A stretch of DNA of 32,393 nt. Origin: Armatimonadota bacterium (GTDB lineage Bacteria > Armatimonadota > JAAZEB01). The stretch lies in NCBI GenBank assembly GCA_012512505.1, contig JAAZEB010000155.1, forward strand, positions 1 to 32,393, read 5' to 3'. A model generated the notes under the pieces. It saw nothing but the letters and a program-made list of their open reading frames with translations, did not search any database and was not told the DNA's origin. Shown here one piece after another: positions 541-31,694 of the stretch (positions are counted from its first letter, which is position 1; every line of letters begins with the position of its first letter). The position numbers and the translations under genes are program-made.

Positions 541-3500
541 CTAGCACTCGCTGTGCCCGCAGGCGTGGCAGGTCATGCAGCCTTCCTCATGGATGAAGGC
601 AGCCTGCCCGCAGGCGGGGCACAGGTCGGCGGCCACCCCGACCGGCGGTTCCGTCTCGTGGCTGGCAAGCTCGTCCGGAACCGGGTGCCCGTTGCCACTG
701 CCCTCCACGCCGTAATGCTCCTCCAACGCCTGGGCCACCGCATCCGGCAGCGAGCGCACTCGGTCGCGGCCGAAGCCGATCCAGCGCGCGCCGCCGATCC
801 CCTTCATCTGGTTCACCATTTCGCGGATGCGGTCCAGGGGGCTGAGGGGCGAGGCGATGCGCAGCACCAGGGACATCAGGCGCCCAATCGCCTCCGCCAT
901 CGCTTTGACGTCGGTGCCTCCCTTGCCGATGTCCACGAACACCTCGAAGGGGCGGCCCTCCGCGTCGTTGTTCATCGTGATGTGGGCAGTGCCGGCGGGC
1001 GTCTTCTTGCTGACGGTGACGCCGTAGCGCTTGTAGGGCCGGGGGCGCACCTTCGGCTGCTCCGCCACTGCCGGGGCCGCCGCCGGCTTCTCGCTCGCCT
1101 CTTTGCGCAGCAGCACCTGTTCGTCACGCGAGCCGTCGCGGTAGATCGTACCCCCTTTGCAGCCGAGGCGGTACATCAACTCGTACAGTTCGCGTGTCTG
1201 AGCCACCGTGTAGTTGTTCGGCACGTTGCAGGTCTTGGAGATGCTGGAATCGATCCAGCGCTGGACGGCGGCCTGCACGCGCACGTGCTCCTCGGGCGTC
1301 AGGTCCATCGCCGTGACGAAGAAGTCTGGCAGCGGCTCGCCCGGGTTCAGCTCCTGCCACTCGCGCACAATCTCTACGTTCTCCTCATGAACGCCCAGCC
1401 GGCTCTTGCGGAAGTAGGTCCACGAGAAGTACGGCTCGATGCCGGTGGAGGTGCCGACCATCGTTCCAATCGTGCCGTTCGGAGCCTGCGTCAGCAGTGT
1501 CACGTTGCGCACGCCCTTTTCAGCCACCAGGGCGCGCACGTCCTCCGGCATGCGCTTCATGTAGCCGCTCTGCAGGAACTTCTCGGCATCGAACTTGGGG
1601 AAGGCACCCTTCTCGGCGGCCAACTCCGCCGCGGCGCGGTAGGCCTCGCGGGCGATGAACTCGTAGAGCCGGTCGATGAACTTTTCCGACTCGGCGCTGC
1701 CATAGCGGATGCCGAGGCGAATCAGCATCTCCGCCAGGCCCATCGTGTTCAGGCCCACGCGCCGCTCCGACTTTTGCTGCGTCTCGTTCTCGGTGAAGAA
1801 GTAGGGCGTCGCGTCGATCACATCGTCCAGGAAGCGCACCGCGTAGCGCACCGCCTGCCCCAGCGGCTCCCAGTCCACCTCGCCGTCCTTCACGAACCGC
1901 GACAGGTTGATCGCCCCCAGGTTGCACACGCCCCAACTTGGCAGGCCCTGCTCGCCGCAGTTGTGCACCACGATCCCGTTCGCGACGAACGAGTGGGTCA
2001 GCGGCTCCGTCAGGTCGTAAACCTCCTCCTCGCCCTCGTACTCCAGAGACTGGAAGGTGGCGCGGTAGTCCTCACGGTAGGGGCCGCGGGTGCATCGCTC
2101 CAGGTAGGCCTGCAGTGCGTCCTGCTTGCGCCGCAGGAGGAAGCCGATCTCCTCCGCGAAGCGCGTCAGGTTGTCCTTGGAGATGACCAGGTCGTGGTAG
2201 GCCGCGGCCCGGTAGAAAGCGTGCCCCCCTTTGCCGTCCGGCATCTCGGCCATCCGCTCCGGCTTGCGGTTGCGGTACAGGGTGCTGGCGATGCCGAAGT
2301 TGAGCAGCAGGCGCTGCACGTCGAGGAGCAGCCCCTCGCTCTTCGACGAGAGCCGGACGCTGCATCCCTTCTCGCCGCTATCGTTGACCTGCCCGTCCGC
2401 GGTAAAGAGCGCGGCCAGGAAGCCGGCCTGCATCTCCCGCGAGGCGGTGAAGAGGCGCTCCGGCACTTTCAGCTTGTCGCCCACCAGCCCAAACTCGTTC
2501 GCGACCCGCCACAGCCGCCACCCACCGACGCGCGCTTCGTCGCGCCCGGCAACCTCAATGGCGCTCACCGGGTAGGGACGGTTGGCTTTCTCCATGCCGG
2601 CCACGATCCGGTTCACCTTCTCGGCGAAGGCCGGAGCCAACTCACGCTTCTCCTCGCCGAAGAAGGAGAGCACCGCCTCGTTCGCCTTGATGGTGCCGTC
2701 GCCCACCAGCCAGCCGAGCACCTCGCCCAACTCGCGTGTGCCGGTGCGCCCGAAGCCGCCGCCCCCCATCTGCAAGTGCACGCGGTCGCCCGGCACCAGG
2801 GCATCGGCACGCACCCAGCCGCGGTCGGTACGCACGCGGTGGTCGCCGGTCAGGCGCACCGTGTAGCCTTCGGCCGTGCGCAGCCGGTAGACCGGTTTGA
2901 CCCCCGTGCGGAAGACATCCGCCGCGGGCGCGAACCGTCGCTCAGGCGATAGACGCTCGTCCAGGGCGACGTCCACCTCCGGGTGCATGGCCAGATCCCC
3001 GATGCGCTCCAGGCCGCGACTGGTCGCCACCAGCGTCTCCGCGGTAACACACGGGTTTGTGCACAAGATCGGCGCGTAGTACCAGGAGTTGGACATGCGG
3101 TTGTAGCGGTCCACGAAGAAGACGCCCGGTTCGGCGCTGGCCCAGGCGCTTTCGATGATCGCGTTCCAGATCTCGCGCGCCGAGCGCGTCTTGTGGACCA
3201 CCACCGGCTTGCCGGCCGCGCGCCAGGCATCCAGGTCACCATCCCACCGGGTATCGAACTCCGGGTCGCTGGTGTCGGGGAAGACCAGCTCCCACTCGCG
3301 GTCGGCCTCCACCGCGGCCATGAAGTCGTCGGTGATGCCAACGCTGATGTTGGCGTTGGTGATCTTGCCGGCCTCGCGCTTGGCGGTGATGAAGTCCAGC
3401 ACGTCCGGGTGCCAGACGTTGAGGATCAGCATCAGGGCGCCGCGCCGCGACCCACCCTGCTCGATCAGGCCGGTGACGAAGGAGTAGAGGCCGCCCCAGG

Positions 3501-4155
3501 AGACCGAGCCGGAGGAGCGCCCGTTGACGCCGCGCACGTAGGAGTGGCGCGGGCGCAGGCTGGAAAGGTTGATCCCGACGCCGCCCCCGCGCGACATGAT
3601 CTCCATCATCGCCGAGAGCGTGTCGACAATCCCCTTGCGCGAGTCGCGCGGGCTGGGCACCACGTAGCAGTTGTAGTAGGTGAGCTGCTGGTCGGTGCCG
3701 GCGGCGGTGAGGATCCGTCCGGCGGGCACGAACTTCCAGTCGTCCAGCAGCCAGCGGAAGCGCTGCTCCCACTCGGCGGCTTTCGGCCCCTCCACGGCGG
3801 CGATGCCACGGGCCACGCGGGCCATCATCTCCTCGGGGCGCGTTTCCAGCGGCTTGTCAATGTGCTCCACCGCGCGCTGCAGCGTGCTCCCATCGCGCAG
3901 CCGCACCGTCACCGTGCCGTCTTGCAGGTCGGCAATCGTGCCGATCTCGCGCTGGCCGGTTTTCACGTCGGTGCAGACCACTACCACGTCGCCCACTGCC
4001 AGCGATCTCTTGCTGGCATCCTTCAAGGCGTAGCGGTCCAGGAAGATCTTCTCGCCCAGTTCATTCAGTCGATTGCGCGCGGGCGCCTCATCCCCCGAAG
4101 CCTGGTCCGACCGGGCCTCATCAACCCGGTGGGAATCTGATCGGGTGGTATCCAT
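541..4155 (-). CDS. nrdJ: Vitamin B12-dependent (class II) ribonucleotide reductase with intein
   Basis: Reduces ribonucleotides to deoxyribonucleotides in the cytoplasm, using adenosylcobalamin to make the cysteine thiyl radical. Numbering here starts from a GTG three codons upstream (4164). The N-terminal redox cysteine lies in YYNCYVV (Cys166). The catalytic NPCGEQ motif is split by an intein (see separate entry), so the radical cysteine is Cys736 and the second redox cysteine is Cys747 in GVCNLGAINL, 11 residues later as in Thermotoga NrdJ. A TSCPD-like region and a C-terminal zinc motif (CPACG...CHACG) that may feed electrons to the active site follow. Residues about 53-105 are an extra, probably beta-barrel, insertion before the ATP-cone-like start of the fold. 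The ATG at 4155 is preferred because AGGAG lies 8 nt before it, whereas the upstream GTG overlaps that site. Without the intein the protein is about 840 residues, normal for the family. nrdR lies directly upstream on the same strand. Confidence 0.96.
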   Translation of the reverse strand: MDTTRSDSHRVDEARSDQASGDEAPARNRLNELGEKIFLDRYALKDASKRSLAVGDVVVVCTDVKTGQREIGTIADLQDGTVTVRLRDGSTLQRAVEHIDKPLETRPEEMMARVARGIAAVEGPKAAEWEQRFRWLLDDWKFVPAGRILTAAGTDQQLTYYNCYVVPSPRDSRKGIVDTLSAMMEIMSRGGGVGINLSSLRPRHSYVRGVNGRSSGSVSWGGLYSFVTGLIEQGGSRRGALMLILNVWHPDVLDFITAKREAGKITNANISVGITDDFMAAVEADREWELVFPDTSDPEFDTRWDGDLDAWRAAGKPVVVHKTRSAREIWNAIIESAWASAEPGVFFVDRYNRMSNSWYYAPILCTNPCVTAETLVATSRGLERIGDLAMHPEVDVALDERLSPERRFAPAADVFRTGVKPVYRLRTAEGYTVRLTGDHRVRTDRGWVRADALVPGDRVHLQMGGGGFGRTGTRELGEVLGWLVGDGTIKANEAVLSFFGEEKRELAPAFAEKVNRIVAGMEKANRPYPVSAIEVAGRDEARVGGWRLWRVANEFGLVGDKLKVPERLFTASREMQAGFLAALFTADGQVNDSGEKGCSVRLSSKSEGLLLDVQRLLLNFGIASTLYRNRKPERMAEMPDGKGGHAFYRAAAYHDLVISKDNLTRFAEEIGFLLRRKQDALQAYLERCTRGPYREDYRATFQSLEYEGEEEVYDLTEPLTHSFVANGIVVHNCGEQGLPSWGVCNLGAINLSRFVKDGEVDWEPLGQAVRYAVRFLDDVIDATPYFFTENETQQKSERRVGLNTMGLAEMLIRLGIRYGSAESEKFIDRLYEFIAREAYRAAAELAAEKGAFPKFDAEKFLQSGYMKRMPEDVRALVAEKGVRNVTLLTQAPNGTIGTMVGTSTGIEPYFSWTYFRKSRLGVHEENVEIVREWQELNPGEPLPDFFVTAMDLTPEEHVRVQAAVQRWIDSSISKTCNVPNNYTVAQTRELYELMYRLGCKGGTIYRDGSRDEQVLLRKEASEKPAAAPAVAEQPKVRPRPYKRYGVTVSKKTPAGTAHITMNNDAEGRPFEVFVDIGKGGTDVKAMAEAIGRLMSLVLRIASPLSPLDRIREMVNQMKGIGGARWIGFGRDRVRSLPDAVAQALEEHYGVEGSGNGHPVPDELASHETEPPVGVAADLCPACGQAAFIHEEGCMTCHACGHSEC
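1960..3051 (-). other. Intein with LAGLIDADG homing endonuclease inside NrdJ
   Basis: A 364-residue in-frame insertion splits TNP^CGEQ. It begins with Cys (CVTAETLVATSRG, the A block), has a B-block TGDHRVRT with the expected histidine, and ends in HSFVANGIVVHN followed by Cys+1 of the extein. All residues needed for standard Cys/Asn/Cys splicing are present. Two dodecapeptide motifs, LGEVLGWLVGDG and GFLAALFTADG, keep their acidic residues (the Asp of GDG and of ADG). The homing endonuclease domain therefore looks intact. Boundaries are exact to the residue, because the host motif NPCGEQ is restored on removal. Confidence 0.95.
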
Positions 4156-4357
4156 AAAACTCACTCCTCGCGTTGGGATGGCATCAGTGTCACGGTTCCA
4201 TCGCCTTCACGATGACGTACTGCGAGACGCTGCGATGCACCGCTGGTTTCACTACGGATGATGGGGTCTGCGCTCGTGCCACCACCTGGCCCACGCCCGG
4301 CGGCGCCGGCCACCGTCGCAAAAGTGCACGAGCGTTTGGAACACTCTACTCCCCGGC

Positions 4358-4858
4358 TTACTCGCCGTAGGGGAGGCGGGGTTGGTCGCGCGGCGGCGCG
4401 TCCTTCTCCTCGTGCCGCAGCACGTCCACCAACTCACGGAACTGCGTCACGTCGCGAAACTGGCGGTAAACCGAGGCAAAGCGCACGTAGGCGACGTGGT
4501 CCAGCTCGCGCAGGCGCGCCATCAGCAGCTCGCCGATCTGCGCCGACTCGATCTCCCGGTCCACCCGGTTGACGAGTTCGCGGTCGATCTCCTCGGCAAG
4601 CTGCGCCAGCGCGTCGGCGTCCACGTTGCGTTTGTGACACGCCACCTGGAGGCTCCGCAGCACCTTGTTGCGGTCGTAAGGCTCGCGGCGACCATCCTTC
4701 TTCACCACCATCAGGCGCTTCTCTTCGATCTCCTCGTAGGTGGTGAACCGCTTGCCGCACTCCAAGCACTGGCGGCGCCGCTTCGTGGCCTCTCCCTCTC
4801 GGATCTCCCGGGAGTCGATCACCTTGTCTTGTAGGCTACCGCAATAGGGACACTTCAC
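4358..4858 (-). CDS. nrdR: Transcriptional repressor NrdR
   Basis: An ATP/dATP-sensing repressor of ribonucleotide reductase genes, about 166 residues. The N-terminal zinc ribbon is visible as CPYCG and CLECGKRF, followed by an ATP-cone domain (VVKKDGRREPYDRNKVLRSL). The family normally begins MKCPYCG, and here GTG-AAG-TGT at 4858 matches with an AGGGAG Shine-Dalgarno 9 nt upstream. An in-frame TTG at 4894 falls inside the -10 box and is unlikely. It lies immediately upstream of nrdJ on the same strand, about 200 bp away, the usual arrangement for its main target. No clear NrdR-box pair could be identified by eye before nrdJ. Confidence 0.95.
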   Translation of the reverse strand: MKCPYCGSLQDKVIDSREIREGEATKRRRQCLECGKRFTTYEEIEEKRLMVVKKDGRREPYDRNKVLRSLQVACHKRNVDADALAQLAEEIDRELVNRVDREIESAQIGELLMARLRELDHVAYVRFASVYRQFRDVTQFRELVDVLRHEEKDAPPRDQPRLPYGE

Positions 4859-4892
4859 GTGCGCCAGCTCCCTACATGTTGTGTGGTAAGCC

Positions 4893-4922
4893 AATATAGC
4901 ACGCCAGATATGCCGCTGTCAA
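4893..4922 (-). promoter_or_regulatory. Sigma70-type promoter of nrdR
   Basis: On the minus strand TTGACA (4922-4917) and TATATT (4898-4893) are separated by 18 bp. Transcription would start near 4886, giving a leader of about 28 nt before the GTG start. The leader contains ACACAACATGTAGG, a partial dyad that could be an autoregulatory site, but the match to an NrdR box is weak. Confidence 0.8.
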
Positions 4923-7014: not shown

Positions 7015-7054
7015 GGGTGGTAGGAGCGCGGGTGCCACCCACCGTCGCGGTGGG
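7015..7054 (+). promoter_or_regulatory. Overlapping alternative hairpins in the operon leader
   Basis: GGGTGG (7015-7020) can pair with CCACCC (7035-7040), while CCCACC (7038-7043) can pair with GGTGGG (7049-7054). The two stems share bases and exclude each other. They also cover a GTG at 7032 that has a TAGGAG 5 nt upstream. A regulatory role is inference only. Confidence 0.4.
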
Positions 7055-7088
7055 GAGCCCGCTTCCGGCGCGGCAGGGACCAGCAGCG

Positions 7089-8825
7089 ATGCGGCAGGCA
7101 GAGGGCTATTGGGGTGGCGGGCGTGCCCGGCAGAAGGCGCGCCAACTAGGGCAGGTGTTTACCCCGGCGCCCCTGGCCAACCTGATCGCGGCCCGGTGCA
7201 TCTCGCGGCCGGAGGCCACCGTCTTTGACCCCTGCGTGGGCGAGGGGGCGCTGCTGCTGGCTGCCGGCCAGCGGCTAGCCGCATTGGGGGCTACCGCCTG
7301 GCACCGCCAGCTCTTCGGCCTGGAGATCGACCCGGAGGCGTGGGCTATCGGCCGCCAGCGCCTGGCCGCCGCCGCCGGGGTGGCGGTCGACGAGATCCGG
7401 GTGGCGCGAGGCGACTTCCTCGCGGGGCAATGGCCCGACCTCGGGCCTGATGGCCAGGCCTCGCTACAGGCAGCCGATACGCTGCCGGGGCTGGCCCTGC
7501 CGGCAGTCGCCCGTTGCCCTTCGCCGCCGCTGTTTGACGTGGCGATCATGAACCCGCCGTACACGCGGCAGGAGCTGCTGCCAGCGGCGCGCAAGGCGGA
7601 CGGGCACGCGGCCGGCCTGAGCCGGCGGATTGGGCTGCACGGGCACTTTTGGGTCCACCTGGCCCGCTGCCTGCGCGAGGGTGGCTGGCTGGGAGCGATC
7701 ACCACGGCAACCTGGCTCTCGGTCGATTCGGGGCACGGGCTGCGGGCGTTCCTGCTGGAGCAGTTCCGCGTTCACCTGCTGATCGACCTAGAGCGCGACG
7801 TGTTCCCGGACGCCTGCGTGGAGGCGTGCATCGCTATCCTGGAAAAGCGGTCGGGGCCGGCAGCGGCTGCCGCGCGCGCGGAGACCCCGGTTCGCTTCGT
7901 CCGGCTGGGGGCTGGCCGCGATCCACAGGCGGCGCTGGCCGAGGCCCTCGCAGGGGAGGGCGCTGGCGAGGGGGAGGGCTGGCGTGCCCGGGTGGTGCCC
8001 CAAGCGGCCCTGACGGCAGCAGAACGCTGGAGCCGCTTCTTCCTGCCGGCAGCCGCGTTCCGGGTCGTTCGCGCCGCCGAGAGCGCCCCGGGGGTGCCGC
8101 TGGCGGCGGTGGCGCACCTGCGTCGGGGGATCACCACCGGCAACAACCGCGTCTTCTTGCTGACGGCGGAGGCCGCCCGCGCGGCGGGCATCGAAGCGGC
8201 CCACCTGCGGGCGATCGTGCGCTCGCCCCGGGAGATCCCGGGCCTGGATACCGACGCGGTGGCGGCGCCGGCCAAGCTGCTGCTGCCGCCAAACCCGGAG
8301 CAGTCGGACAGTGGCGCCGCCGCCTACCTGCGAGCGCGGGGAGTGAGCGGGTCTGCCTACCTGCGGGGAGAGCCGCCCCCGCCGGCGCCGCTGCTATTTG
8401 GCTACGCGGTGCGCGGGCGCAAGGCGTTCTTCCGCAACTCGGCGTGCCTACTGGCGAGTGATAACTTCCTGGAGATCGTGCCGCGCCACCCGGACGACGT
8501 GCCGCTCCTGTTCGCCCTGCTGAACGCGCTGCCCACGGCGTTCCGGCTGGAGACGCTCGGGCGCGGGCAGGGGCGCGGCCTGCTGAAGATCCAGCGCCGC
8601 GAGTTGGCCGCGCTGGTGCTGCCAGACCCGGCCCGCCTCGATCCCGGTCTGCGCCGCGAGCTGGAGAGCCTGGGGGAGGCGCTGCGGCGCGAACCCGACT
8701 GCGTGGCCGCTCGAACCGCGCTGGACGAGGCAGCCTGCAGCGCCTGCGGCCTCGACCCCGAGGCGCTGCGCCGCGCCGAGCAAGAGTTGGTCACGGGCCG
8801 GCTGGCCCGGAAAGGCGCGTGGTGA
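7089..8825 (+). CDS. Gamma-type N6-adenine DNA methyltransferase (TaqI/Eco57I-like)
   Basis: Transfers a methyl group from S-adenosylmethionine to adenine in a DNA target. Motif X is GQVFTP (residues 21-26 from ATG 7089), motif I FDPCVGEGALL (46-56), an acidic motif II in LEIDPE (78-83) and motif IV NPPYTRQ (155-161). The second half, beginning near HLRRGITTGNNRVFLL, resembles the target-recognition region of TaqI- and type IIG-like enzymes. No nuclease motif is seen. Length is 578 residues from ATG 7089; a GTG at 7032 with a better Shine-Dalgarno would add 19 residues of low-complexity sequence. It is the first gene of a three-gene unit, and its TGA overlaps the next start by 4 bp. Confidence 0.88.
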   Translation: MRQAEGYWGGGRARQKARQLGQVFTPAPLANLIAARCISRPEATVFDPCVGEGALLLAAGQRLAALGATAWHRQLFGLEIDPEAWAIGRQRLAAAAGVAVDEIRVARGDFLAGQWPDLGPDGQASLQAADTLPGLALPAVARCPSPPLFDVAIMNPPYTRQELLPAARKADGHAAGLSRRIGLHGHFWVHLARCLREGGWLGAITTATWLSVDSGHGLRAFLLEQFRVHLLIDLERDVFPDACVEACIAILEKRSGPAAAAARAETPVRFVRLGAGRDPQAALAEALAGEGAGEGEGWRARVVPQAALTAAERWSRFFLPAAAFRVVRAAESAPGVPLAAVAHLRRGITTGNNRVFLLTAEAARAAGIEAAHLRAIVRSPREIPGLDTDAVAAPAKLLLPPNPEQSDSGAAAYLRARGVSGSAYLRGEPPPPAPLLFGYAVRGRKAFFRNSACLLASDNFLEIVPRHPDDVPLLFALLNALPTAFRLETLGRGQGRGLLKIQRRELAALVLPDPARLDPGLRRELESLGEALRREPDCVAARTALDEAACSACGLDPEALRRAEQELVTGRLARKGAW

Positions 8826-10213
8826 CGAAGCCGTCTTACTTTCAGAGCCGCTATCTGGCGCATAAATACTGGGGGCGGAGGCCCTGGTACGTGGTGCGGG
8901 GGCTGATCGAGGAGAACACCTGCGAGGGCGACGTGGTGCTCGACTCCTTCTGCGGCAGCGGCACCACGGTGATTGAGGCGCTGGCCACCCGACGACGCGC
9001 GGTCGGCGTCGATCTCAACCCGATGGCGGTCTTCATCACCCGCGTCACCGCCACGCCGGCCGATCCCGCCGCCCTGACCGACGCCTTCGAGCGGCTGCGC
9101 GCCGTGGCCCAGGCGCCGATTGACCGCCTCTACGAGCGCGATCCCGAGGGGATCGTGCCGGAGCACTGGTACCCGGATGTCGTCTTGCCGCACTCCTCGT
9201 TCGGGGCGGCGCGCAAGGGCGTCACCGTGGCGCACCTCTTCTCGCGGCGCAACCTGGCCGCCACCGCCTTCCTCTGGCACGCCATCAACACCCTGGAGTG
9301 CGATCCCGTCTCGCGTGATCTGCTGCGCTACACCTTCACCGCCGCGCTCGCCCAGTTCACCAAGATGATCCGCACCAAGAAGGAGGGCACCGGCTGGTAC
9401 GTCAACGCCTACCGCATCCCACGCAGTCACCGCGAGAATAACGTGTGGCACTCTTACGAAAACAAGCTGCGCGCCGTGCTGCGGATGAAGCGGGAAAGCA
9501 ACGAACTGCTGGGGCACGTGGAGATAACCCAGGCGCCTCCCACGACCCCCGGCGCCACCTGCTGCCTGCGCTGCGGCTCCGCCACCGACCTCTCCTTTCT
9601 GCCCGACAACAGCATCGACTATGTCTTTATCGACCCTCCCTGGGCGATCAAGTACTTCGACCTGAGCGTGCTGTGGTGTGCCTGGATGGGCTTCCCCCTC
9701 AACTTCGACGAGGAGATCTTCCCGCACGAGGCCAACTTCCGGGAAGACATGGCCCGCGCCCTCAAGGAGCTGGCGCGCGTGTTGCGCCCGGGCCGGCGGG
9801 CGACGGTGAACTTCGCCACCCGCCACACCGACCAGATCAACGATCTGCGCGAGGCGATTGAGCACTCCGGCCTGGAGTGGACCGGCACCCAGACGCTGCA
9901 GCAGGACCAGCTCTCCTTCGTGCAGCGGCAGACCGACCTGGCGCTGAAGGCAAACTACCTGCTGACGCTGGAGAAGTGGCGCGCCCCCGCCGGCGCCGCG
10001 GCGCTGCCGGTGACCGCTGACTGCGTGGCGGCGATGATCGGCGCGCTGCTGGCCCGACGGGGGCCGCTCTCTTACGACGAGATCTTCCAGCACCTCTACC
10101 CGGAGATTGCCCGCCGCCCGCTGGAGTGCGACATCCGCCGGGTGTTGGAGCGCAACTTCCGCCTGGTGGAGGAGCGCCGGCCCTATGTCGAGCCGCGCTG
10201 GGCGGCGGATTAG
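8822..10213 (+). CDS. DNA methyltransferase, DSFCGSGTT...DPPW type
   Basis: A second, unrelated DNA methylase of 463 residues. The SAM-binding motif DSFCGSGTT is at 41-49 and the catalytic motif DPPW at 271-274. The segment HKYWGRRPW (14-22) resembles the start of COG1743/DUF1156-like adenine methylases. A CLRCG pair (248-252) precedes the catalytic motif. The last 100 or so residues look like a winged-helix or target-recognition module. The start is GTG at 8822 inside GTGA, translationally coupled to the upstream methylase; GTG 8819 is an alternative. DPPW rather than NPPY fits either N6-adenine or N4-cytosine methylation, so the modified base is unknown. Confidence 0.82.
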   Translation: MTKPSYFQSRYLAHKYWGRRPWYVVRGLIEENTCEGDVVLDSFCGSGTTVIEALATRRRAVGVDLNPMAVFITRVTATPADPAALTDAFERLRAVAQAPIDRLYERDPEGIVPEHWYPDVVLPHSSFGAARKGVTVAHLFSRRNLAATAFLWHAINTLECDPVSRDLLRYTFTAALAQFTKMIRTKKEGTGWYVNAYRIPRSHRENNVWHSYENKLRAVLRMKRESNELLGHVEITQAPPTTPGATCCLRCGSATDLSFLPDNSIDYVFIDPPWAIKYFDLSVLWCAWMGFPLNFDEEIFPHEANFREDMARALKELARVLRPGRRATVNFATRHTDQINDLREAIEHSGLEWTGTQTLQQDQLSFVQRQTDLALKANYLLTLEKWRAPAGAAALPVTADCVAAMIGALLARRGPLSYDEIFQHLYPEIARRPLECDIRRVLERNFRLVEERRPYVEPRWAAD

Positions 10214-10224
10214 GGGAAGGCGAC

Positions 10225-13065
10225 GTGCCGACGATCCTGACGCCCTCACTGCACGAGCACAACTACTACCCGCCCCTCCTGGAACGCCTGGAGCGCGCCC
10301 TCGCCCGCCTCGGCCTCGACCGCAAGGGCTTCCACGTCGTCATCTCTCCCGATGCCGACAACCAGGCCGACCTGATGGTGAAGCAGTTCACTCAGGACCG
10401 CCTGGCAATCGAAGTGAAGAAGACGCGGGAAGATGTGGCCGCCGTGCGCACCTGGAAGCAGGCGCGCGGCTACGTCACCAACTCCACCACCGCCGGCCTG
10501 CGCCACTTCTGCGTCACCAATGGCGAGCTGCTCTTCATCTTCCGCCACGAGGAGGGGCAGCGCGTGGCCGCCTGCCTGGTGGCTGGCGGGCGCAAGGATC
10601 TGGGCCGCTTCGGCCCCGGCGGCGAGGCGGATGCCGTGCTCGACCGTTGGGAAGAGGAGATCACCGCGCTGCTGCGCGACCTCTTCGTCGTTCAGCGGGA
10701 GTACGCCCTCGACCACTCCTTCGCCGGCCTGATCGAGAAGTATGGCCAGGCCCACGTCCTCTTGGCCGAGCGGCTGCGCCGCGCCGTCGTCGAGCGCCTG
10801 GCCGACCCCCAGTGGCGGGAGGCGTTCCTGGCCTGGTGCCGCACCTTCTCTGCCACCCCCGAAGCGCCGGAGAACCAGGCCGTGGCCGCCGAGGAGGCCG
10901 CGCACCTGCTGCTGCACCGGATCCTCTGCTACGAGCTGTTCCGCACCCAGCTTGACCTGCTGGATGACCGCCTCAAGCGCCGCTTCCAGGTGCCGCGCGT
11001 CACCCTGGAGCCGCTTACCACCGCGGCGGTGGGAGACACGCCGATCACCCAGGCGCTGGCCGAGCGCTTCCAGGCCCTCACCCGCGTGAATTACACCCAG
11101 GTCTTCACGCGCGACCCGGTGCTGGACACCCTCCCCCTCGACACCGAGGCGGAGGGCATCGTGCGCGCCTTCCTGGAGGACGTGGATGCCTTCTCCTTCG
11201 ACCTGGGGAACTTCGAGGAGGCGCGCCGCCTCTTCCCCACCGTCTTCGAGGCGCTGGTGCCCCCGGAGAAGCGGCGCCGCTACGGGCAGGTCTTCACCCC
11301 CCAACCGCTGGTGGAGATCCTCTGCCGCCTCTGCATCACCGACCCTACGCAGCGGGTGCTGGACCCGGCGGCCGGCACCGGCGCCTTCCTGGACGGTGCC
11401 TACGAACGCCTCGACACGCTGGCGCTGGCGGCCGGCCAACCGCTGGACCACCGTGAGCTGCTGGCGCGCCTCTACGGGGTGGAGATCAGCACCTTCCCGC
11501 TGCACCTGTGCGCCGTGCGCCTGGCGCTGAAGCATCCCGCCTTGCCTACCGAGGCGCAGCTTTGCCACGCCGATTTCTTCCACACCGACCCCGGCTCGCT
11601 GCTGGGCGGGCAGCAAGCCGACGTGGTGCTCGGCAACCCTCCTTACATCCGGCAAGAGGTGCTGGCCGAGAAAGAGACCATCCGCGAGCGGATCCGGTCG
11701 GCACTGGGAGAGAGCGGGCCCACCGGCCACGCCTATCCCTACAGCCCGAGGGAGGCAGACGCCTACTTCTACTTCGTGGAATACGCCACCGCCTACCTGC
11801 GCGAAGGGGGCGCCGCCGGCTGGGTGCTCTCCGACAAGTTCCTGGTGGTGGACGCCGGCCGGCCGCTGAAGCAGTTCTTGCTGGATCACTACCACGTGCG
11901 CGCGGTCATCACCCTGGCGCGGCGCACCTTTGCCGAGGCCCTGGTGGACAACTGCCTCCTGGTGCTGCGCCGCCAGACGGGCGGAGCGCCGCCGGAGGCG
12001 CCCACGCTCTTCCTGAAGCTCCGCCGGCCGCTGCCGGTCGAGGAAGTGGCCCGTCTGGTGGAGGACCCGCGGCCGGGCGCCAACGCCTACCGCCGCGCGG
12101 TGGTCCGGCCGCGCTGCCAGATCGCCGCCGGCGACAAGTGGCTGGGCTACCTGACCGATGACGGCGTGCTGCCGCGCGTGCTCGCCTCGCCCGGGATGAC
12201 CCCGCTCGTTGCCGTCGCCACCTACGAGCGCGGGCCGGACAACGGCTGCGCCGCCTTCTTCTTCCCCAGCGAGGAGCTGATAGAGAGCTTCGGGCTGCCG
12301 GAACGCTTCCTGGTGCCGGCGGTGGAGCGGGGAAGCGACCTGCGCCGCCTGATCCTGCGCCGCAGCGAGTGCAAGCGCCTGCTGCGGGTGCCGCCGGATA
12401 CCGACCTGACAGCGCCCGCCAACGCTGGCCTGGCCGCTTACATCGCCTATGCCGAAACGCCCGAGTTCGACGCGGGCTACCGGCACCGGGGGCGCTACCT
12501 GCCGGTGCCACAGCGCCCGGTGGTCACCGCCAATGCCGGCGGCGGGCCCTGGTGGTCGTTCACCCGGGGCTCGGGCGACTGGCAGATCCTGGTGCCGCGC
12601 GGGTTCCGCACCCACTATAAGGTGGTGGCCAACCGGGCGCGGGCGCACCTCTCGACCAACTTCTGGGGCCTGCGCCTACGGGGCGCCGGTCGCCACCCCC
12701 GCGAGTTGGTGATCGATATCGCCTTCGTGACGGCGTTTCTGAACAGCAGCCTGGGGCAGCTTCAGGTGGAGCGCGAGGCGCGCCGCTACGCCGGCTTCAC
12801 CAAGCTGGAGCGCCAGGAGCTGGAGCGCCTGCGCGTCCTCGACCCCCAGCGCGTGCCGCTGCCGGAGCGCCGCCGTGTCTATCGGCTCTTCCGAGACCTC
12901 GATGCCGCCTATGGCACCCCGGCGTACGCGGATGCCCGCGAGGCGCTGGACCGGGCATTCCTCGCCCTCCTCGGCTGCGAAGAGCAGTACGACGACCTGA
13001 TTGACCTGCTGGACGAACTCGTTTCCGAGCGCCAGCAGTCCGGCGCCGGGCCGGATGCCGCCTGA
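10225..13065 (+). CDS. Nuclease-methyltransferase fusion, type IIG/type I-like restriction enzyme
   Basis: A 946-residue protein that probably both cuts and methylates DNA. The N-terminal 120 residues resemble an HsdR_N-like PD-(D/E)XK nuclease: Asp45/Asp49 in SPDADNQADL, then IEVKK (62-66), and a downstream FCVTNGELLFIF strand. A helical spacer (about 140-345) follows. The gamma-type methylase has GQVFTP (354-359), LDPAAGTGAFL (379-389) and NPPYIRQ (471-477). The remaining 450 residues would hold the target-recognition domain. The start is GTG 10225 with GGAAGG just upstream, 11 bp after the preceding gene. No helicase motif is seen, which argues against a classical type I motor subunit. It closes the operon. 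Confidence 0.85.
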   Translation: MPTILTPSLHEHNYYPPLLERLERALARLGLDRKGFHVVISPDADNQADLMVKQFTQDRLAIEVKKTREDVAAVRTWKQARGYVTNSTTAGLRHFCVTNGELLFIFRHEEGQRVAACLVAGGRKDLGRFGPGGEADAVLDRWEEEITALLRDLFVVQREYALDHSFAGLIEKYGQAHVLLAERLRRAVVERLADPQWREAFLAWCRTFSATPEAPENQAVAAEEAAHLLLHRILCYELFRTQLDLLDDRLKRRFQVPRVTLEPLTTAAVGDTPITQALAERFQALTRVNYTQVFTRDPVLDTLPLDTEAEGIVRAFLEDVDAFSFDLGNFEEARRLFPTVFEALVPPEKRRRYGQVFTPQPLVEILCRLCITDPTQRVLDPAAGTGAFLDGAYERLDTLALAAGQPLDHRELLARLYGVEISTFPLHLCAVRLALKHPALPTEAQLCHADFFHTDPGSLLGGQQADVVLGNPPYIRQEVLAEKETIRERIRSALGESGPTGHAYPYSPREADAYFYFVEYATAYLREGGAAGWVLSDKFLVVDAGRPLKQFLLDHYHVRAVITLARRTFAEALVDNCLLVLRRQTGGAPPEAPTLFLKLRRPLPVEEVARLVEDPRPGANAYRRAVVRPRCQIAAGDKWLGYLTDDGVLPRVLASPGMTPLVAVATYERGPDNGCAAFFFPSEELIESFGLPERFLVPAVERGSDLRRLILRRSECKRLLRVPPDTDLTAPANAGLAAYIAYAETPEFDAGYRHRGRYLPVPQRPVVTANAGGGPWWSFTRGSGDWQILVPRGFRTHYKVVANRARAHLSTNFWGLRLRGAGRHPRELVIDIAFVTAFLNSSLGQLQVEREARRYAGFTKLERQELERLRVLDPQRVPLPERRRVYRLFRDLDAAYGTPAYADAREALDRAFLALLGCEEQYDDLIDLLDELVSERQQSGAGPDAA

Positions 13066-29988: not shown

Positions 29989-30660
29989 CTACTCTCCCGG
30001 CAGCAGCCGGGCCAGGTCGGCATGCGGCCGGGCGATGACGTGCGAGGCGATGTGCTTGCCGCCGATGCGCTGGCAGGCGGCGGTGCCCGCCTCAACGGCG
30101 GCGGCGACGGCCGCCACGTCGCCGCGCACGATCACGGTGACGTAGCCGGCGCCGATCTTCTCTTTGCCCACCAGTTCCACGTTGGCGGCCTTTAGCATCG
30201 CGTCGGCAGCTTCCAGCATCGCCGTGAGCCCCTGGGTCTCCACAAAGCCCAGGGCCAGGCTGTTCGTCTCCTTGCGCATCACTGCTCCTTCGGGGCCGGG
30301 CGCGGCGCCCGTCTCGCGGTCTCCCGCCGCCGGTTCCCGCTCTGGGCGGGGGTAGTACTGCTCGTAGCCGCCGTAGAGGGCGTTGAAAGTTCGCCGGGGA
30401 GCCACCAGCGCCGGGGGAATCACCGGGCGCGCCAGCACCTCGGCGGCGAACGCGGCGCCCATCTGCTCGGCGGCAGCCCGCCCAGCGGCAACGGCCGCCT
30501 GCACCGCCGCCGTCGCGCCCCTCAGGCGGATCAGCATCTCGCCGCGGCCGTTCGCCTCGATGGAGGCGACCACCACCCCGGCGGCCTTGCCAACGCAATC
30601 GGCGACGACCGCCGTGGGCGAGAAGCCAGCCACTTCCACCAACCCGAGGGCCTCGGTCAC
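29989..30660 (-). CDS. Tandem BMC-domain shell protein (BMC-T-like)
   Basis: A bacterial-microcompartment shell protein of 223 residues with two BMC domains (about 3-80 and 135-215). Both show the family start ([14 protein letters not shown]), the central helix ([22 protein letters not shown]), the strand MLIRLRG or TVIVRGD and an end ARP. The second domain has the typical pore-lining KIGAG; the first is more divergent (no KIG; GRGEM). Domain order is normal rather than circularly permuted. The linker of about 50 residues is rich in Tyr, Pro and Gly. The start GTG overlaps the aldolase stop as GTGA. An internal ATG at 30279 has a perfect AAGGAG 5 nt upstream, so a separate second-domain protein of 96 residues (29989-30279) may also be made. 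Confidence 0.93.
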
Positions 30661-31694
30661 CGGCTACCCTCCTGCCGCAGGCGCAGCAGCACCTCGCGCA
30701 CCACGGCGCGCACCTGCTCTTCGGAGAGATTGGCGGCGGCCTGGGTGGCGCACACAGGCGAGACGGGTGGCGGCGGCACCAGTGGATCAGGATCGAACTC
30801 TTTCAGCAGTTCGTGCAGCACCTGGCGCAGCGCCTCGATGTTGCAGCGCTCGCCCGGAGCCAGCGGCTGGCGCGACTCGCCCATTCGGAAGCCGCGCAGT
30901 TCCATCGCCGCGCGGAACCCCTCCGGGAAGCCAGCCCCGAACAGCATGGTGTTGATCAGATGCAGCACGCGGTACTGCAGCGCCACCGCCCGGGGGAAGT
31001 CGCCCCGCTCCACGCAGCGGAACATCTCCACCACCACTTCGGGCACCACGCCGGCGGTAGCGACCGTGCCGCCATCGCCCCCCATCAGCAGCGTCGGCAC
31101 CAGGATCTCCTCGCAGCCGATCAGGAAGGAGAAGTCTGGGCGCAGCGGGCGCACCTCGTTGATGGTGTTCAGGAAGCGCGGCATGTCGCGGCTGCTGTCT
31201 TTGATGGCGACGATGCGCGGCAGCTCCACCAGTCGCTTCAGCACGTCGATGCTGATCTCGTTGTTGGTGAACTGGGGGATGTTGTAGAGGGTGATATCGA
31301 TGGGGCTATGTCGGGCCAGGGTAGCGAAGTGCTCGTAGACGCTCTCCTGGCTCAGGCGGTAGTACCACGGCGGCACCACCGCCACCGTGTCGCAGCCCAG
31401 CTCCGCGTAGTACTCGCAGGCGGCCAGCGTTTTCTCCAGGCTGAACTCGGCCGCGCCCGCCAGCACCTTCGCGCGCCCGCGGTTCTGGTCCACCACGATC
31501 CGCACGATCTCCTTGTGCTCCTCGAAGGAGAAGCGGACGAACTCGCCCATCGTGCCGTTCGGGTAGAGGCCGTGTACCCCGCGCTGGATCAGGAACTCCA
31601 CCAGCCGGCGCAGCTCGCCCTCGTTGATGCGCCCCCGGGAATCGAGAGGCACCATGTTGGGAGTGAAGATACCGCGCAGTCGTTCTCGTGGCAT
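30657..31694 (-). CDS. DapA-superfamily aldolase/lyase with probable BMC encapsulation peptide
   Basis: 345 residues. The barrel is of the dihydrodipicolinate synthase/N-acetylneuraminate lyase family: NGTMGE (46-51), Tyr137 in TLYNIP and Schiff-base Lys165 in VAIKDSS. It probably cleaves or forms a 2-keto acid by a pyruvate-Schiff-base mechanism; the exact substrate is unknown. After the barrel comes a Pro-rich linker (about 302-313, [13 protein letters not shown]) and an amphipathic helix (about 322-343, with [16 protein letters not shown]). This linker-helix tail is not part of ordinary DapA and looks like the encapsulation peptides that direct enzymes into microcompartments. The gene overlaps the shell-protein start by 4 bp, supporting that reading. 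GGAGG lies 12 nt before the ATG. Confidence 0.93.

Follow-up and report, generated by a model that had tools for sequence, protein, structure and literature searches.

A predicted bifunctional intein at the radical cysteine of a class II ribonucleotide reductase from an Armatimonadota bacterium

Inteins favour conserved, functionally critical sites, as set out in the cited part of PMC2814812, and ribonucleotide reductases are frequent hosts: rir1 alleles are spread over bacteria and archaea, and rir1-b is represented by 15 halobacterial, 55 bacterial and 5 other euryarchaeal sequences (in the part of PMC4071816 used here). The RIR1 inteins of InBase resemble the element described here in that they likewise lie in the large subunit of the reductase, are bifunctional and have a wide, patchy distribution (same part of PMC4071816). 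The R2 (NrdB) intein of Aquifex aeolicus also splits an essential catalytic site of a reductase and is removed on expression, but it sits in the small subunit and interrupts the iron-site ligands, not the radical cysteine (PMC8772380, in part). Among phages, the inteins of SPbeta-type NrdE occupy an equivalent position and are 30% identical to ours over residues 1-364, while their host is a phage class Ib (class I) enzyme and ours belongs to class II. The NP/CGE site studied here (the slash marks the splice junction) may correspond to one of the lettered RIR1 alleles of InBase. Two further relatives can be compared through their structures. PI-PfuI (1dq3), whose host is presumably the ribonucleotide reductase of Pyrococcus furiosus, has a fold like that of our intein over the whole length (Z 27.5, rmsd 4.6 Å, 325 aligned), but shares 18% identity and is 454 aa long; the NrdJ-1 intein (8ubs) is alike in the fold of its splicing domain (Z 20.0, rmsd 2.0, 133 aligned), but is split and without an endonuclease, and we assume its +1 residue to be the Ser just after the radical Cys. 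In the open-licence PMC literature we found no papers pairing an intein with the reductase finger loop, or with nrdJ and Chloroflexi, and none on Mth RIR1 and proline; for methanogen RIR1 none was relevant by title, and the combination of intein and Armatimonadetes returned, by title, only CRISPR papers.

The window, that is, the whole stretch of 32,393 nucleotides analysed, carries on its minus strand a single open frame (541-4164, GTG start, 1207 aa, zero internal stops) for the precursor of a class II, B12-dependent ribonucleotide reductase, NrdJ, with an intein inside it. The precursor has the Pfam host domains Ribonuc_red_lgN, Ribonuc_red_lgC (384 bits) and TSCPD; its score of 573.6 bits against the NCBIfam model NrdJ_Z (TIGR02504, cut-off 399.95) and its NPCXE finger loop, here NPCGEQ, are those of a class II NrdJ, and going by the NCBIfam name the enzyme would be adenosylcobalamin-dependent. 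The N-extein (3052-4164, minus strand, 371 aa) ends in LCTNP, and the C-extein (541-1959, minus strand, 472 aa plus stop) begins with CGEQ. Directly upstream on the same strand lies the gene for the repressor NrdR (4358-4894, identified by both Pfam and NCBIfam), which adjoins nrdJ also in the two nearest relatives, G001 and G002. Two shadow frames run opposite nrdJ on the plus strand (553-2952, 799 aa; 2983-4140, 385 aa), as is typical of high-GC coding DNA. A riboswitch or tRNA link to the intein locus was considered and dropped, since the window contains no Rfam match at the gathering threshold and no tRNA.

Between the two exteins lies an intein of 364 aa (1960-3051, minus strand, 1092 bp) that runs from CVTAETLV to GIVVHN, with exactly the coordinates given in the original prediction. 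The codon of Asn364 occupies 1962-1960, and the next codon, TGC at 1959-1957, encodes the Cys of CGEQ; these codon-exact junctions confirm that the insertion falls between Pro and Cys of NPCGEQ. Inside the host domains, the precursor matches the Pfam models Intein_splicing (PF14890; 50.3 bits, cut-off 35.8) and LAGLIDADG_3 (PF14528; 78.1 bits, cut-off 22.5), which, judged by these scores, are far beyond chance. The residues that define a class 1 intein are all present on the minus strand (block motifs named after part of PMC4031507): Cys1, the first splicing nucleophile (3049-3051); the TxxH of block B, here TGDH with Thr68 and His71 (2839-2850); block F, from Asp346 to His353 (1993-2016); His363-Asn364 of block G (1960-1965); and Cys+1 (1957-1959). 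The homing endonuclease domain, at about residues 102-328 (2068-2748, minus strand), contains a pair of LAGLIDADG helices, and each carries its catalytic acid: LGWLVGDGT with Asp118 (2692-2718, minus strand) and FLAALFTADG with Asp219 (2392-2421, minus strand). When the window intein is aligned with 13 related inteins, Thr68, His71, Asp118, Asp219, Asp346, His353 and His363 are invariant (14/14), Cys1 is kept in all save L009, which begins inside the intein, and Asn364 is found in 13 of the 14, with Gln in L013. With both LAGLIDADG Asp residues kept throughout, the endonuclease motifs are intact, as had been claimed. Two inteins at the NP/CGE site end in Gln, not Asn: L013 (4596-4598, HQ/CGEQ) and L088 (GQ/CGEQ).

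The AlphaFold model of the intein has a pLDDT of 89.8 and a pTM of 0.90, and its best fold match is the TliVMA intein (7qsu; Z 27.8, 301 aligned, 3.7 Å). The HINT splicing fold is evident from the matches to 1mi8 (Z 21.4, rmsd 1.9 over 133) and 4o1r (Z 20.6, rmsd 2.2 over 136), and structures of I-DmoI match at Z 17 over about residues 102-316. Over its whole length, the confidently modelled fold is matched best by solved bifunctional inteins. Modelling 931 aa, the greater part of the precursor, gave a structure too weak for geometry (pLDDT 72.6, pTM 0.59). The NCBIfam reductase model PRK08332 aligns in one stretch from intein residue 43 through the C-extein, and this suggests that the reductases behind that model hold an intein at the same junction. 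The window insert is a true intein from a mobile family, of which many are already recorded at this position, and it is ordinary in kind. We regard it as very probable that a class 1 intein of the bifunctional type, equipped with a LAGLIDADG homing endonuclease, lies here in the only ribonucleotide reductase that was detected in the genome. What the analysis shows is the sequence and position, the intact residues, the fold model, the empty site, horizontal movement across the family and purifying selection; that the precursor splices and is inactive before it does so, and that the endonuclease cuts and homes, is inferred. The notion that the insert is a dead relic in a non-functional host gene has practically no probability in our eyes: the frame is open, all splicing residues are kept, exteins and intein are both under purifying selection, no other reductase was found, and the analysis yielded no evidence in its support.

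In class II reductases the catalytic cysteine is surrounded by NPCXE in 3,175 of 3,347 sequences, with NPCGE in 2,005, and the thiyl radical sits on the finger-loop cysteine of the motif NXCXE (PMC9669993, in part). The Cys of NPCGEQ in the window aligns with Cys322 of Thermotoga NrdJ (1xje), and from this alignment and the finger-loop motif it follows that the +1 nucleophile of splicing and the radical cysteine are one residue, as the original prediction held. A search with the NrdJ model, which also detects E. coli among the controls, finds a single gene of the NrdJ/NrdA type in the 96.9% complete genome of the window, and the class III NrdD model has no match there; at this completeness, a second reductase could be missing from the assembly. 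Because it is the sole reductase found in the genome, nrdJ is probably essential, and with it splicing.

We propose that NrdJ would be translated as the 1207-aa precursor, in which the intein splits the finger loop that bears the radical cysteine. Cys1 would attack at the Pro-Cys bond, and the N-extein would be handed to Cys+1, the future radical cysteine; Asn364 would then cyclise, and an S-to-N shift would restore NPCGEQ. Only after splicing could this cysteine take its place at the loop tip and form the thiyl radical, and there are good grounds to expect that the precursor is inactive until then. The endonuclease, for its part, would cleave an nrdJ without intein at these conserved codons, and the intein would be copied in; such a site would shield the element, as imprecise loss would kill an essential enzyme and the target codons would be unable to drift. 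Against this explanation we count the Pro at position -1, which is said, from work on another reductase intein, to be capable of slowing splicing; a Methanothermobacter RIR1 intein with Pro at -1 has reportedly been studied.

With the reductase's own thiols as nucleophiles, splicing might also be conditional, and the intein might place dNTP synthesis under a checkpoint that responds to redox state or stress. Cys-4 (CTNP/C), Cys1 and Cys+1 lie together in the precursor, redox-trapped inteins exist (3nzm is among the fold matches), and a mycobacterial DnaB intein is called an oxidative stress sensor in the title of a paper. Of the 45 loci with an intein, however, only 12 have Cys-4, which is present also in the intein-free NrdJ of G001 and is therefore a feature of the host; we consider such a checkpoint very improbable. 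A strict redox gate, in which oxidation would block splicing and catalysis at one thiol and active NrdJ would form only in a reduced cytosol, seems to us a shade less probable again.

The bifunctional intein favoured here can be followed among close relatives. When the precursor was searched in 61 genomes (the window's own and 60 relatives), 60 of them matched; among the 29 loci L027-L055, the site is an uninterrupted N[PL]CxE in 26, holds an intein in one (G002) and is uncovered in two. The nearest host gene, that of G001 from a sister genus in the same family, has exteins 88% and 85% identical to those of the window, and these adjoin exactly at the insertion bond, leaving a clean empty site, as is expected of the precise insertion of a class 1 intein. 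The next relative, G002, carries the intein.

In the host tree, the window groups with the empty-site G001 (support 100/99; 96/91 with insert-free columns), and a grouping with the intein-bearing G002 is rejected (AU p=0.004). This arrangement is what recent homing into the window lineage would give; a single loss in G001, however, explains it equally well, so that the occupied, empty and occupied sites reflect either one loss in G001 or two gains. Recent homing is further opposed by the GC3 of the window intein, which is fully host-like (0.904, against 0.883 and 0.905 in the exteins), and by the nearest intein known in this analysis being only 84% identical; we consider it unlikely. The idea of a compositionally foreign intein was dropped, as GC along the region is flat and GC3 equals that of the host. 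In G002 (L057), the GC3 of the intein, 0.852, is lower than that of the exteins (0.927 and 0.937), and this copy may be a younger arrival than that of the window.

Between window and G002 the inteins differ with dN 0.117 and dS 1.05, compared with a dS of 0.70 and 0.67 for the exteins, and identity at fourfold sites is lower in the intein (78/187) than in the exteins (210/369; Fisher p=0.0009; bootstrap difference -0.24 to -0.06). A signature of recent exchange near the junction was also sought, and identity between window and G002 showed no consistent rise over 20, 40 or 80 codons on each side. Given the host-like GC3 and a silent divergence of the intein that exceeds that of its exteins, the window copy appears not to be a fresh arrival, nor to have been exchanged recently with that of G002. 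The description of the intein as recently mobile is thus not upheld for this copy.

The same observations are what one would see if the intein still splices while its endonuclease is no longer active and the element is now inherited vertically. Against this stand both LAGLIDADG catalytic Asp residues, kept as they are in all 14 aligned inteins, and the dN/dS between window and G002, which is 0.113 for the endonuclease, 0.112 for the whole intein and 0.230 and 0.162 for the exteins. As the endonuclease is under about the same constraint as the remainder of the intein, these ratios argue for purifying selection on it and for a function that is kept up. We thus see loss of endonuclease activity as possible, and as clearly the less probable reading next to an endonuclease whose function has been maintained.

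A wider survey bears on the mobility of the intein family. The intein-bearing set comprises 45 loci: the window, 12 of 22 loci from a first search, four from a second and 28 from a third. From the 22 we excluded L017-L025 (nine loci with another host) and L009, which has no N-junction; the second search gave matches in 17 of 291 genomes and 10 loci were taken, namely the window, G002, the four used and L062-L065, which were left out; the third matched 63 of 400 genomes, and of the 30 loci taken two were repeats. The N-junction NP/ is found in 44 of the 45 loci (L080 ends there), and the C-junction is /CGE in 36 and /CSE in eight, again 44 of 45, the end of L088 being called two residues short of CGEQ; since inteins from the NP/C site itself served as queries, the counts speak for breadth and say nothing of a preference for the site. 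The hosts that bear names include Armatimonadetes, Chloroflexi, Candidatus Microgenomatus and Candidatus Kerfeldbacteria.

Intein and host trees were built from 29 of the 45 loci. L008 and L013 join the window and G002 in the host tree (99/99), but in the intein tree they join L010, L011 and L016 (100/99), whose hosts fall on a remote branch of NrdJ. Each data set rejects the grouping of the other: AU is 1e-5 for the host grouping tested on the inteins, and 4.5e-78 (6.5e-43 with insert-free columns) for the intein grouping tested on the hosts. The groups were chosen once quick trees had been seen, so these p-values are descriptive; the differences in log-likelihood are large, at 64 and 480-493. 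The first host trees, built on the 300 residues that flank the site on either side, may include other inserts (L010, L013 and similar hosts); redoing the host tree with columns anchored on the window exteins left the conflict unchanged. Such a strong conflict indicates that inteins have crossed between NrdJ subfamilies and that the family moves horizontally. Together with the empty site in the sister genus and purifying selection on the endonuclease, the conflicting trees uphold at the level of the family the mobility originally proposed. Elsewhere in the protein, L010 and L013 have further large inserts, which separate aligned blocks by about 448 aa and 941 aa, respectively, and L010, L013, L011 and L016 have long frames of up to 2317 aa; the NrdJ hosts of L010 and L013 may carry several inteins each.

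Mobile replicons were covered as well. An intein alignment scan of viral contigs gave one weak, partial locus at 26%, 31 annotated phage records match the intein, none of them at 60% identity or above, and no plasmid record covers 80% of the precursor. Four of the 31 phage records were examined, and in all four the insert precedes the radical cysteine: NL/C...N/CSE in SPbeta NrdE, NL/C...N/CTE in both a staphylococcal SPbeta-like phage and an uncultured phage, and NP/C...N/CGE in a Moorella phage. From these inserts, the position ahead of the radical cysteine appears to be a niche for inteins in reductases of class I and class II alike. The window intein is a clean and well-documented case: its +1 residue is the cysteine that carries the catalytic radical in the one enzyme for making dNTPs that the genome search detected, a sister genus has the empty site, and related inteins occur in several bacterial phyla. 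The case lends support to the established view that inteins survive where the host cannot alter the site; it overturns nothing and opens nothing new, and the pair of empty and occupied sites lends itself well to tests of homing and of enzyme activation that depends on splicing.

Other inteins and neighbouring genes were seen in passing. The genome of the window has a second intein at L106 (2452-7575, minus strand, G000:C172), in a 1707-aa protein with the junctions GFNK/CLTGDT...VVHN/SHSAAY; its host, labelled by eye, reads as DNA polymerase III alpha. G001 has an intein elsewhere, at L109 (1871-4393, plus strand, G001:C209), in a protein that is SpoVR-like by eye (NEGWA/CATGD...NHN/SFWHG). 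Within the window, three consecutive or overlapping frames at 7017-13065 (plus strand) have N6/N4 DNA methyltransferase domains and score as type II or IIG restriction-modification, possibly a defence cluster; at 29989-31694 (minus strand), a protein with two bacterial microcompartment shell domains adjoins a gene of the dihydrodipicolinate synthase family.
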